A stretch of 64,000 bases of DNA, from contig NZ_CP155551.1 in assembly GCF_039679125.1 (NCBI RefSeq), forward strand, positions 3,472,001-3,536,000, given 5' to 3'. The notes beneath the pieces were generated by a model. That model worked only from the letters and a program-made list of their open reading frames with translations, had not been told where the DNA came from and did no database searches. The stretch comes from Blastococcus sp. HT6-4 (GTDB lineage Bacteria > Actinomycetota > Actinomycetes > Mycobacteriales > Geodermatophilaceae). Position numbers and translations under genes: made by a program. This document shows, piece after piece, positions 24,257 to 59,533 of the stretch (positions within the stretch are counted from its first letter, which is position 1; the number at the start of each line of letters is the position of its first letter).

Positions 24257-24333
24257 TGGTAGCGGGGACAGGATTCGAACCTGCGACCTCTGGGTTATGA
24301 GCCCAGCGAGCTACCGAGCTGCTCCACCCCGCG
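24257..24333 (-). tRNA. Initiator tRNA-Met (CAU), copy 1
   Basis: The 77-nt gene includes an encoded CCA (24257-24259). The anticodon loop is CTCATAA in a stem with three consecutive G-C pairs (CTGGG/CCCAG), and position 1 is C facing U at 72, an unpaired end; both mark an initiator. The T arm GGTTCGAATCC is standard. A -10-like TAGGGT lies about 12 nt upstream. The tRNA body is identical to copies at 56.8 and 59.5 kb. Confidence 0.97.
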
Positions 24334-29140: not shown

Positions 29141-30190
29141 TCAGGACGGCGTGTGCGCTTCCTCGGCGCTCGCGTTCGCCGCGTCCCGTCCGGCAGCCCG
29201 TGCCCGCTGCGGCTCGACGGTGTACTTCGGATCCTTCGCGCTGGCCATGCCGGCGTCGAAGACGCCGAAGCGGGTGAACACGGAGCCGGCCGCCAGGAGG
29301 GCACCCCCGATCACCGCCGGCACGCGTCGCCGACCGGCGGTGAGGGCCAGCGCCGTCCCGGTCACCGTGCAGGCGCGGGCGGCCCGCAGCTGCCGGCCCG
29401 CGCGGCCGGTGCGGTAGGGCTCGCTCACCAGCCCGTGGCCGTGCTCGATGCGGTGCATGGCGCCGAGCTCGATCAGCGCACCGGTGACGGCGACCTTGCG
29501 GGCCGGCCCGGCCTCCTCCGCAGGGCTGCAGGCGACGGCGATGCCGCCCCCCGCGGCCATCGCCGAGCCGGCGAAGGCGAACGGCAGCTCCCGGTGCGCC
29601 TCGTGCCAGGACGGCACCGCGGTGTTGGACAGGAGCGCCGCGGTGTAGGTGGTCATCGGTCCGCCGAGCACGCCCGCCCCCACCCCGGTGAGCATCCGCA
29701 GGCGCCGGAAGCGACCCAGCAGGTGGGCCCCGGCCGTGGCGGTGGCCAGCGCGCTGAACGGCGCCAGGATCCAGGAACCCACCGACAGCGGCGACGTGGG
29801 CTTGAACACCCGCAGCATGTTCAGGAACCGCGCCGGCCGGCCCAGGTCGTGGATGAGGAAGGCCACCGACGTCAGCGCACCGCCCCCCGCGGTGAGGTGC
29901 GCGACGCGGGACAGGGCCGGCCGGCCGGTCAGCTCGGCCAGCGCCCCGAGCAGCGCCGACGACCCCGCCGCACCGCCGAGGAACAGGTACAGCGGCACGT
30001 CCGGGGTCTTCCACACCGGCGGCTTGATCACCGGCCGCCCGTAGTACGAGGCGAACTCCGCCTCCCCCACCACCGACTCACCCGGTCGCGGGGCGCGGCC
30101 GCCCGACCGGCGGTGCCGTTCCCGGTCCTGCGCCGGTGCGCCGTCCGCGCGGCGCCAGCCGGCCCCGGGAACCGCCTCCCCCGCCGTCAC
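29141..30190 (-). CDS. nrfD: NrfD/PsrC-type membrane quinone subunit of formate dehydrogenase
   Basis: This 349-residue integral membrane protein belongs to the NrfD/PsrC family, which passes electrons between Fe-S proteins and the quinone pool. A soluble N-terminal stretch (about 1-60) is followed by about eight hydrophobic segments, including PLYLFLGGAAGSSALLGAL and HDLGRPARFLNMLRVFKPTSP, both typical of the family. GTG 30190 overlaps the fdhB stop (GTGA). It replaces the cytochrome b (FdnI) of Escherichia coli FDH-N, so the complex probably reduces menaquinone directly. Confidence 0.9.
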   Translation of the reverse strand: MTAGEAVPGAGWRRADGAPAQDRERHRRSGGRAPRPGESVVGEAEFASYYGRPVIKPPVWKTPDVPLYLFLGGAAGSSALLGALAELTGRPALSRVAHLTAGGGALTSVAFLIHDLGRPARFLNMLRVFKPTSPLSVGSWILAPFSALATATAGAHLLGRFRRLRMLTGVGAGVLGGPMTTYTAALLSNTAVPSWHEAHRELPFAFAGSAMAAGGGIAVACSPAEEAGPARKVAVTGALIELGAMHRIEHGHGLVSEPYRTGRAGRQLRAARACTVTGTALALTAGRRRVPAVIGGALLAAGSVFTRFGVFDAGMASAKDPKYTVEPQRARAAGRDAANASAEEAHTPS

Positions 30191-31224
30191 CGGCGTCGCC
30201 CCACGAACGCCGACGCCACCACGCCGACCACCATCGCCGCGCCCGCGGCGACGTGCCGCCACATGGACGGCAGGTCGCGGGTGGTCACCACCGGATCCGG
30301 CGGGAGCCCGTAGACCTCCGGTTCGTCCAGGAGCAGGAAGAAGGCGCCCGCTCCCCCGACCCCGTCGGTCTCGTCGTGCCCGTACAGCCGGACCCCCTCG
30401 ACGCCCTTGTCCTGAAGCGCCGCCAGCCGGGCGTCGGCACGGGCCCGGAGCTGGTCGAGGTCGCCGAACTGGATCGACTCGGTCGGGCAGGCGCTCGCGC
30501 ACGCGGGCTGGAGCCCGTCGGTGAGCCGGTCGTAGCAGAGGGTGCACTTGAACACCCGTCCGTCGTCCTGCCGCTGGTCGATGACGCCGTAGGGGCAGGC
30601 GGGCACGCAGTAGCCGCAGCCGTTGCAGATGTCCTCCTGCACCACCACGCTGCCGAACTCGGTGCGGAACAGCGAGCCGGTCGGGCAGACGTCCAGGCAG
30701 GCGGCGTGGGTGCAGTGCTTGCAGACGTCGGAGCTCATCAGCCACCGGATCTCCCGGTCCGCCGACGGCGTCTGCTGCGGTGCGCTCTGCTCGGCCGTGG
30801 TCGCCGACGCCGGCACCCGGGGGTGGACGACGGGCGGGTCCTCCAGCGGCCGCGGCCCGCCGACCGCGCCCGGCGCCCCCACGGTCGGCATCGGGAGGTC
30901 GACCGCGCGGCTCTGCTCGACGAAGGCCACGTGCCGCCAGCTGTTGGCCCCGAGCATGCCGGTGTTGTCGTACGACGCCCCGGTCAGCCCGAGCTGCGCC
31001 CGGTTGCCCTCGGCGTCGTCCATCGGGAGCGTGTTCCACTCCTTGCACGCCACCTCGCACGCCTTGCACCCGATGCACACCGACGTGTCGGTGAAGAAGC
31101 CGACCCGGGGCGGGTGGTCGTCGCCGTAGCCGCGTTCCCCGGCGACGTCGGGGACCGGGCCGAACAACCGGTTGTGCGGGTCGTCCCCGGAGAAGGCGGT
31201 GCTCGCCGAACTGATCGTCGTCAT
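30187..31224 (-). CDS. fdhB: Formate dehydrogenase iron-sulfur (beta) subunit
   Basis: This 345-residue ferredoxin-type subunit has four cysteine clusters, each for a [4Fe-4S]: CIGCKACEVAC (around 52), CKHCTHAACLDVC (around 165), CNGCGYCVPAC (around 202) and CTLCYDRL plus CASAC (around 228-248). It wires FdhA to NrfD. A single C-terminal hydrophobic helix (about 318-340) should anchor it to the membrane. The ATG at 31224 overlaps the fdhA stop (ATGA), and its own stop overlaps nrfD. The open frame upstream of 31224 is only an antisense-like read-through of fdhA in another phase. Confidence 0.93.
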   Translation of the reverse strand: MTTISSASTAFSGDDPHNRLFGPVPDVAGERGYGDDHPPRVGFFTDTSVCIGCKACEVACKEWNTLPMDDAEGNRAQLGLTGASYDNTGMLGANSWRHVAFVEQSRAVDLPMPTVGAPGAVGGPRPLEDPPVVHPRVPASATTAEQSAPQQTPSADREIRWLMSSDVCKHCTHAACLDVCPTGSLFRTEFGSVVVQEDICNGCGYCVPACPYGVIDQRQDDGRVFKCTLCYDRLTDGLQPACASACPTESIQFGDLDQLRARADARLAALQDKGVEGVRLYGHDETDGVGGAGAFFLLLDEPEVYGLPPDPVVTTRDLPSMWRHVAAGAAMVVGVVASAFVGRRR

Positions 31225-34200
31225 GACCGCTCCTCGATCGGGGCTCGTCCGTTGGGGCCGAGCCGCCCACTGGCGACGCCGGCCCGGCGGCGGTGGTCCT
31301 CGACGAACTCGACCAGCGCAGGCCCCCGGGGCCGGCGGCCGGGCCGGATGTCGCAGGTGGCGACCTTGGACTCCTGGATGTGCACGTTCGGGTCCATCAC
31401 CACGCCGAGCAGCTCGTTCGCCGAGTCGCCGGTGGTGATGCCGTTCTGGCCCCAGTGGTACGGGATGCCGATCTGGTGCACCTCGCGACCGGCGACCCGC
31501 AGCGGGCGCATCCGCTCGGTGACGAGCACCCGTGCCTCGATGGCGTTGCGCGCGCTGACCAGCGTGGCCCAGCCCATGTGCTCCAGCCCGCGCTCGGCGG
31601 CCAGCTGGGGGCTGACCTCGCAGAAGAACTCGGGCTGGAGCTCGGCGAGGTACTCCAGGGTGCGGCTCATCCCGCCGGCGGTGTGGTGCTCGGTGAGCCG
31701 GTAGGTGGTGACGACGAACGGGAATACCTCGTTCATCGCCGGGTTGGCCCGGTTCCACGCGCCCCTGATCTCCTTGCGCGCGGGGTTGGCCTGCCGCTCG
31801 TACAGCGGGTTGGGCACCGGTGACTCGGCCGGCTCGTAGTGGGTCGGCATCGGCCCGTCGGCCAGCCCCGCCGGCACGAACAGCCACGCCTTCCCGTCGC
31901 CCTGCATGATGAACGGGTCGGTCCCGGAGAGGGCGTCCTCGGCGGTCGCCCCCTCGGCGGGCACGTGGTCCGGCCGCTTGGTGGCCTGGAAGTCCGGGAC
32001 GTCCGGGCCGGTCCACTTCCCGGCGTCCTCGTCCCAGTACACGTACTTCTTGCGCTCGCTCCACGGCCGGCCCTCGGGGTCGGCCGAGGCGCGGTTGTAC
32101 AGCACCCGGCGGTTCATCGGCCACGCCCAGCCCCACTCCGGAGCCACCAGGTCCTGCTCGGTGTGCGGCTTCTTCCGGTTGGCCTGGTTCACCTCGTCGG
32201 CGAAGACGCCGGAGTAGATCCAGCAGCCGCAGCTGGTAGAGCCGTCGTCGGCGAGCTCGGTGTACCCGGAGACCGCCGTCCCGTCCGGCCCGGTCCCGCT
32301 GATCTCGCGGAGCACCGCATGCGCACTCGGTTCGTCGTGCGGCCCGTGGGTCGGGTAGTCCCAGGTGAGGTCGAGGATCGGCCGGTCCCGCGGGTCGGTG
32401 GACCCGGCCAGCTTCTCGCGGACGATCCGGCCGAGGTGGAAGTAGAACCACAGGTCGCTGCGGCAGTCCCCCTCCGGCTCCACGGCCTGGGAGTGCCACT
32501 GCAGCAGCCGCTGGGTGTTGGTGAACGAGCCGTCCTTCTCCACGTGCGCCGCGGCGGGCAGGAAGAACACCTCGGTGGGGATCTCCTCGGTCACCAGCTC
32601 GCCGGTCTCGATCTCCGGCCCGTTCTCCCAGAACGTCGCCGACTCGATCATCTGCAGGTCGCGGACGACGAGCCACTCGAGGTTGGCCAGGCCGAGCCGG
32701 GACATCTTCCCGTTGGCGTTGCCGACCACGGGGTTCTCCCCCACGAGGAAGTATCCGGGCACGTTGCCCTGGATCTGCTCGGCGATCGTCGTGTAGTTGC
32801 TGTGGTCGCCGGTCAGCCGGGGCAGGTGGTCGAAGCAGAAGTCGTTCTCCGGCTGCGCGGCATCGCCCCACCAGGCCTTGAGCAGGCTGACCGCGTACTT
32901 CCGCATGTTGCCCCAGTAGCCGACGGAGCCCGACGCCTCGGCGACGAAGTCGTCGAGGTCGCGGTCCTCGCGGGCGTGCGGCATCGGGATGTACCCGGGC
33001 AGCAGGTTGTACAGCGTCGGGATGTCGGTCGACCCCTGGATGCTGGCGTGCCCGCGCAGCGCCAGGATGCCGCCACCCGGGCGTCCCATGTTCCCCAGCA
33101 GCGCCTGCAGCACGCTGGCCGCACGGATGTACTGGACACCGACGGTGTGCTGGGTCCAGCCCACCGAGTAGACGAAGGCGCTGGTGCGCTCGCGGCCGGA
33201 GTTCCTGGTCAGCGCATCGGCGACCTTCAGGAACACCGCCGGCTCGATGCCGCAGACCTCGTGGACCAGCTCCGGGGTGTAGCGCGCGTAGTGCCGCTTG
33301 AGCACCTGGTAGACGCACCGCGGGTGCTGGAGGGTCTCGTCCCGCAACGGCTTCCCGCCCACCGGCAGCCCGCCGCTGCCGGACTCCTCCGCGCTGCCCT
33401 CCTCGTGCTCCTCCGGATCGGGTGCTGCTCCGGGCTGCCGGCCGTCGGGCGAGCCGGACGCGCCTGGCTTGGGCGCCTGGCGCTGACCGGCCGCGGCGGT
33501 CACCTGGGTGCCCTCGTACTGCCAGGACGTCTCGTCGTACTGCCCCTTCTCCGGGTCGTAGCCGGAGAACAGGCCGTCGAGGTCCTCGGTGTCCTGGAAG
33601 TCCTCCCGCAGGATCGCCGCCGCGTTGGTGTAGGCGGCCACGTACTCGCGGAAGTCCAACTCGTTCTGCAGGACGTGGTTGATCAGCCCCCCGAGGAACG
33701 CGATGTCGCTGCCCGCCCGCAGCGGGACGTGGAGATCGGCCAGCGCGCTCGTGCGGGTGAACCGCGGGTCGACGTGGATGACCGTCGCACCGCGCGCCTT
33801 GGCCTCCATCACCCACTGGAAGCCCACCGGGTGGGCTTCGGCCATGTTCGAGCCCTGGATGACGATGCAGTCGGAGTTGGCGAGATCCTGCTGCGGCATC
33901 GTCGCGCCGCCGCGACCGAACGACGTCCCCAGACCGGGGACGGTGGAGGAGTGCTATATGCGGGCCTGGTTCTCGACCTGCACCGCGCCCAGCGCGGTGT
34001 AGAGCTTCTTCATGAGGTAGTTCTCCTCGTTGTCGAGGGTCGCCCCTCCGAGGCTCGCTATCCCCATCGTGCGGTTGACCCGCTTGCCGTCGACCTCGTC
34101 CTGCCAGGTCGCGCGGCGGGTCCGGATCACCCGGTCGGCGATCATGTCCATCGCGGTGTCGAGGTCGAGGTCCTCCCACTCCGTCCCGTGCGGACGGCGG

Positions 34201-34514
34201 TAGCGGACCTTGGTCTGGCGGGTCGTACTGGTGACCAGGTTCTTGCTGGCCGCCCCCTTGGGGCACAGCCGGCCGCGGCTGATCGGCGAGTCGGGGTCAC
34301 CCTCGATCTGGGTGACCTTCTCGTCCTCCACGAACACCCGCTGGCTGCAGCCCACCGCGCAGTAGGGGCACACGCTCTGAACCACCCGGTCGGCGGTGGC
34401 CGTGCGGGGGGCCAGGGAGTTCGTCCGCTTGCTCCGCACCGCCTCACCGCGGCCGAGCGGATCGTTCCCGGTGAGCTGCCGGACCACCGGCCACGCGTCG
34501 AGCCAGGTCTTCAT
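31221..34514 (-). CDS. fdhA: Selenocysteine-containing formate dehydrogenase alpha subunit (Sec encoded by UAG)
   Basis: This molybdenum/tungsten bis-MGD formate dehydrogenase catalytic subunit has 1097 residues when the in-frame TAG (33956-33954) is read through. N-terminal part: [4Fe-4S] motif CPYCAVGC...CPKG (around 49-82), no Tat signal, so cytoplasmic. The TAG falls at residue 187 in ENQARI-*-HSSTVPGLGTSFG, exactly where FDH selenocysteine or cysteine stands, followed by MPQQDLANSD and the rest of the MGD domains. A SECIS-like hairpin follows. A low-complexity insert (around 345-400, rich in G, S, P, E) interrupts the middle. ATG 34514 has GGGAGGGG. Without recoding it would be two fragments. 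Confidence 0.93.
33923..33944 (-). promoter_or_regulatory. Bacterial SECIS element of fdhA
   Basis: Starting 9 nt after the UAG, AC, a single bulged C, then GTCCCC pair with GGGGAC-GT around the apical loop GGTCT (33935-33931). The loop GGUCU and its distance of 18 nt from the Sec codon equal those in E. coli fdhF as I remember it. The SelB elongation factor should bind here. Confidence 0.85.
33954..33956 (-). other. In-frame UAG read as selenocysteine in fdhA
   Basis: The codon is TAG on the minus strand, between ATA (Ile) and CAC (His). It aligns with the Sec UGA of E. coli FDH-H (V-U-H-G-P-S-V-A-G-L) as R-I-*-H-S-S-T-V-P-G-L. Both sides are intact and in one frame. Confidence 0.9.
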
Positions 34515-56790: not shown

Positions 56791-56814
56791 GCTGCAGCGA
56801 TGCGCTGCGGGTCG

Positions 56815-56888
56815 TAGCGGGGACAGGATTCGAACCTGCGACCTCTGGGTTATGAGCCCAGCGAGCTACCGAGCTGCTCCACCCCGCG
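56815..56888 (-). tRNA. Initiator tRNA-Met (CAU), copy 2, no encoded CCA
   Basis: The 74-nt body is identical to copies 1 and 3, including the GGG/CCC anticodon stem and C1 facing U72. The next three bases are CGA instead of CCA (56814-56812), so the mature 3' end must be made by a CCA-adding enzyme. A -10-like TACCGT lies about 10 nt upstream. Confidence 0.96.
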
Positions 56889-59456: not shown

Positions 59457-59533
59457 TGGTAGCGGGGACAGGATTCGAACCTGCGACCTCTGGGTTATGA
59501 GCCCAGCGAGCTACCGAGCTGCTCCACCCCGCG
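59457..59533 (-). tRNA. Initiator tRNA-Met (CAU), copy 3
   Basis: The gene is 77 nt with encoded CCA (59457-59459). The sequence is identical to copy 1 over the whole tRNA, with anticodon CAU, three G-C pairs in the anticodon stem and C1 facing U72. A -10-like TAGCGT (59549-59544) lies 10 nt upstream. Confidence 0.97.

Follow-up and report, generated by a model that had tools for sequence, protein, structure and literature searches.

The closest described counterparts of the locus analysed here come from the same bacterial family. Santesmasses et al. (2017; PMC5330540) found tRNA-Sec genes with the anticodon CUA in three genomes of the Geodermatophilaceae, and added an AhpC selenoprotein with a Sec-UAG codon in Blastococcus saxobsidens DD2; the same text cites Mukai et al. 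(2016) for formate dehydrogenase and UGSC-motif selenoproteins. In part of its text, a 2026 review of the prokaryotic selenoproteome (PMC13188914) gives UGA only as the natural selenocysteine codon. UAG for selenocysteine is a rare natural change in the meaning of a stop codon. In 2016 Mukai and colleagues reportedly used 75Se labelling or mass spectrometry to verify that UAG directs the synthesis of selenoproteins. The canonical system of Escherichia coli (fdhF, fdnG) shares selA, selB, selD, the tRNA-Sec fold and a SECIS-type hairpin directly behind the codon with the genome described here, which differs in having a UAG codon and a CUA anticodon where E. coli has UGA and UCA.

The window, i.e. 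the whole stretch of DNA that was analysed, comprises 64,000 nucleotides of the soil bacterium Blastococcus sp. HT6-4 (NZ_CP155551.1); the genome is a single contig of 4,297,415 bases. As in the Geodermatophilus and Blastococcus strains of Mukai et al. (2016), a CUA tRNA-Sec and a formate dehydrogenase gene with UAG at the Sec site occur together in a member of this family. No difference of principle separates the two cases, ours being another genome, with two copies of fdhA. A preliminary description of the window had mentioned that such recoding was reported for these two genera, which is borne out by PMC5330540, citing Mukai et al. (2016); since UAG-directed selenocysteine is thus published for the Geodermatophilaceae, the locus is a further member of a known variant. 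The description had also offered it as a further example: it does add another genome, but it is not an isolated case, the trait being near-universal in the family and in print since 2016–2017.

Table 1. Features of the window and of other sequences discussed in the text
Feature	Location	Strand	Remarks
fdhA, selenocysteine formate dehydrogenase catalytic subunit (predicted)	window 31221..34514	-	1097 aa reading through one UAG
UAG codon 187 of fdhA, almost certainly read as selenocysteine	window 33954..33956	-	aligned Sec site, family homologues
Bacterial SECIS-type hairpin	window 33924..33942	-	7-bp stem CGUCCCC/GGGGACG, loop GGUCU
fdhB-like 4Fe-4S subunit	window 30187..31224	-	Pfam Fer4_11, E 3.7e-24
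NrfD-like membrane subunit	window 29141..30160, start approximate	-	Pfam NrfD_2, E 2.8e-10
tRNA-Met (CAT), three genes	window 24257-24333, 56814-56888, 59457-59533	-	61.8 bits each
tRNA-Sec, anticodon CUA	genome 1309686-1309777		Rfam tRNA-Sec, 65.7 bits, full-length covariance model match
Second fdhA	genome 310823-314026		one TAG
AhpC-like peroxiredoxin gene	genome 117669-118325		one TAG, GDW-*-PYCC
Second tRNA-Sec of G091, UCA	L169:1169-1263 (G091, C17)
Two CUA tRNA-Sec genes of G142	contig C255:162092-162183, 221048-221139		~59 kb apart
fdhA-type gene of G517	contig C195:2837-6082		one TGA and one TAG

The codon in question is CTA on the plus strand, i.e. TAG on the minus strand. The frame 34514..31221 contains 1098 codons with its terminal stop, and its sole internal stop is the TAG at codon 187. 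The product of read-through at this codon belongs to the actinobacterial formate dehydrogenases, with 1985.7 bits for NF041513 (formate_DH_Act), whose cut-off is 1400. Tested separately, the portions on either side of the TAG, the second taken from the first ATG after it, scored 343 and 1573 bits, and match the model in succession (positions 2-185, then 207-1067). Residue 187 aligns with the X (selenocysteine) of 1h0h and 1kqf, two formate dehydrogenases of solved structure, in the contexts ARI-X-HS and ARV-X-HG. The earlier claims that fdhA carries one TAG at the Sec/Cys position, and that coding is intact on both sides of it over 1097 codons, are confirmed. The fdhB-like gene, whose ATG start overlaps the fdhA stop, and the NrfD-like gene lie downstream.

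Exactly one tRNA-Sec was found in the genome. Its neighbours on either side are selD (minus strand) and selA; the latter, like selB, is on the plus strand. All three gene products exceed the NCBIfam equivalog cut-offs: selD with 387.8 bits (cut-off 125), selA with 423.3 (267.9) and selB with 288.2 (242.25). Besides its GTPase domain, SelB possesses PF09107, the C-terminal winged helix which binds SECIS in known SelB proteins. The CUA tRNA-Sec, selA, selB and selD are therefore all present, as the preliminary reading of UAG as selenocysteine entailed. A second Rfam tRNA-Sec match above the gathering score (48.2 bits, at 295282) is an ordinary tRNA-Ser with anticodon UGA. The Rfam scan of the window yielded only the three tRNA-Met genes of Table 1.

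The hairpin behind the fdhA codon spans 19 bases, +15 to +33 with numbering from the U of the UAG (CGUCCCC-GGUCU-GGGGACG). In the 33 distinct TAG sequences, 99.6% of the stem cells are paired; when the 3' partners were shuffled 2000 times, pairing averaged 90.5% and never exceeded 96.5%, under a null which ignores relatedness. Pairing is kept across homologues despite changes on both sides of the stem: the pair +18/+30, both of whose bases are third codon positions, occurs as C-G, G-U, G-C or U-A, and the outermost pair, C-G in the window, is G-C in almost every relative. The loop GGUCU is found in 32 of the 33 sequences, in contrast to the low use of GGT, only ~8% of the glycine codons of fdhA, selA, selB and selD pooled. 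By inspection, the two homologues with a cysteine codon have not kept the hairpin sequence. Folding of the single fdhA hairpin gave no extra stability over shuffles of equal G+C-rich composition (z -0.36), which is unsurprising because the background is so rich in G+C.

From the observed genes and CUA anticodon, the alignment of the Sec site, the conservation of the hairpin, and the match of codon to anticodon in the family, the catalytic residue 187 of FdhA is almost certainly selenocysteine specified by UAG, not UGA, and the preliminary reading is supported. The tRNA-Sec with anticodon CUA would be charged with serine, and SelA, with selenophosphate from SelD, would turn the Ser-loaded tRNA into Sec-tRNA-Sec. 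SelB would deliver this to the ribosome where a hairpin that it presumably binds stands behind the UAG; the fdhA codon would then be read as selenocysteine, while UAG elsewhere would still mean stop. Release factor 1 competes at UAG.

Stop-codon read-through is known in general, and an ordinary amber suppressor tRNA, or near-cognate decoding, might instead insert a common amino acid at codon 187. This is very unlikely, given the conserved hairpin behind the codon and its place at the catalytic Sec/Cys site. A census of 48 distinct tRNA genes, in which the tRNA-Sec was the only one with a CUA anticodon and none had UCA or UUA, rejects a suppressor tRNA.

Using a simple gene finder on 257 kb, 134 long frames were surveyed for their stop codons, and ended in TGA (123), TAG (10) or TAA (1). 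One of the ten TAG frames is the first part of fdhA and another is probably a spurious frame antisense to fdhB, so that TAG is the ordinary stop of about 8 of 132 predicted genes. Because these still stop with TAG, the survey points to context-dependent recoding of UAG, not to a wholesale reassignment. This minority of genes is also what favours taking the fdhA codon as a true stop, with the gene a pseudogene, its halves separate proteins, or the TAG a sequencing error. Such a reading is even less probable than read-through: the coding sequence is unbroken on either side, and TAG stands at the same site in both fdhA paralogues of the genome and in copies of separate descent. Among family homologues, every full-length fdhA listed showed TAG, and the codon is identical at 55 of the 112 homologous sites examined, so neither chance nor a sequencing error accounts for it. 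That the CUA tRNA reads UAG as pyrrolysine can be dismissed, since ARAGORN calls it tRNA-Pyl because of its anticodon, whereas it fits the tRNA-Sec covariance model at full length and is flanked by selD and selA, no PylS scored above the cut-off in the genome (22.7 bits; cut-off 178.15), and homologues have Sec or Cys at the site. With this label, and with standard annotation splitting UAG-Sec genes, mis-annotation of the family's selenoproteins is likely.

The CUA tRNA-Sec pattern was present in 104 of 115 genomes of the Geodermatophilaceae. The UCA pattern was present in seven, all fragmentary MAGs of three genera (g5, g6 and g7), and four incomplete genomes had neither. Every full-length family fdhA among the matches listed has one TAG, the exceptions being fragments that lack the site and a single copy with a broken frame (G112). 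In the three UCA genera no fdhA of the NF041513 type scored above the cut-off; the UCA tRNA-Sec matches of these genera (L160-L168) include two each in G105 and G107.

A wider sample of 395 genomes of the class gave 105 fdhA rows covering most of the model, counted by hand from the table. Eighty have TGA, 21 have no stop and presumably encode Cys, three have TAG, all of them in the genus of the window, and one has both TGA and TAG. The last (G517), from a 63% complete MAG outside the family, may be an assembly error.

The descent of FdhA was investigated with a tree of 75 proteins, in which the column of the Sec/UAG codon itself was masked. The TAG rows formed three separate groups, and did so again with 35 rows, a profile mixture and bootstraps. 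The main group holds the window FdhA and 37 others. L171 (G137) pairs with a TGA sequence of the Kineosporiaceae (support 99/99), and L077 and L172 (Geodermatophilus sp. TF02-6; G071) lie inside a clade of Streptomyces, Thermomonosporaceae and Pseudonocardiaceae (100/100) whose members mostly have TGA. A single group of all TAG rows was rejected (p-AU 1.2e-5), and did not appear in any of the 200 bootstrap trees from the careful 35-row run. Trees that united the main group with one or the other foreign group were likewise rejected (p-AU 3e-6 each, values somewhat optimistic because these groups had been chosen with the first tree already in view).

Since these TAG lineages nest inside UGA-using clades, the simplest account of the two foreign lineages is horizontal transfer from UGA users with a later switch of the codon to UAG, which requires two base substitutions. 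The source might instead be a UAG donor outside the family that the sample missed. Contamination is unlikely because TAG as the sole stop at this site was seen only in the Geodermatophilaceae. On the account by transfer and codon change, the Sec codon probably follows the host tRNA, fdhA genes from UGA-using actinomycetes having been converted from UGA to UAG at least twice with the same hairpin kept. The tRNA itself would have switched from UCA to CUA inside the family, because three MAG genera still have the UCA form. If this is true, a changed code word is no absolute barrier to the acquisition of selenoprotein genes.

A literature search, with most subscription papers outside its reach, revealed nothing on Geodermatophilaceae genera bearing UCA or on codon change after transfer. 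The recoded transferred fdhA lineages and the three MAG genera which keep a UCA tRNA-Sec are apparently new, and the family-wide match of codon and anticodon, together with the recoded transferred genes, goes beyond the literature found. Near family-wide fixation, UCA genera assigned to the family and recoded transfers make the evolution of a code variant testable step by step.

The AhpC selenoprotein of B. saxobsidens DD2 has a counterpart in the genome, an AhpC-like gene containing UAG, with a hairpin immediately behind the codon. The hairpin, with a GGUCC-type loop, is nearly invariant and therefore provides no evidence of covariation. In contrast to the single strain of the earlier report (PMC5330540), the gene was found here in 30 family genomes; it is full-length with one TAG in 28 of them, including that of the window. 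In the other two (L280 in G137 and L281 in G061) it also has the TAG, and the frame is broken because one base is missing a few codons behind the UAG.

Two further genomes possess more than one tRNA-Sec. Geodermatophilus sp. LHW52908 (G091, L019) has a CUA tRNA-Sec plus a second with UCA, which sits close to transposase-like frames in DNA of lower G+C (~0.59-0.65; the contig has ~0.70-0.75 farther along). A search for a second selA in this genome found only the one; the UCA gene may be a mobile tRNA-Sec that reads UGA within a UAG organism. In G142 both tRNA-Sec genes carry CUA, and they differ slightly in sequence (CTGGTGGTCC and CTGGTGGCCC).
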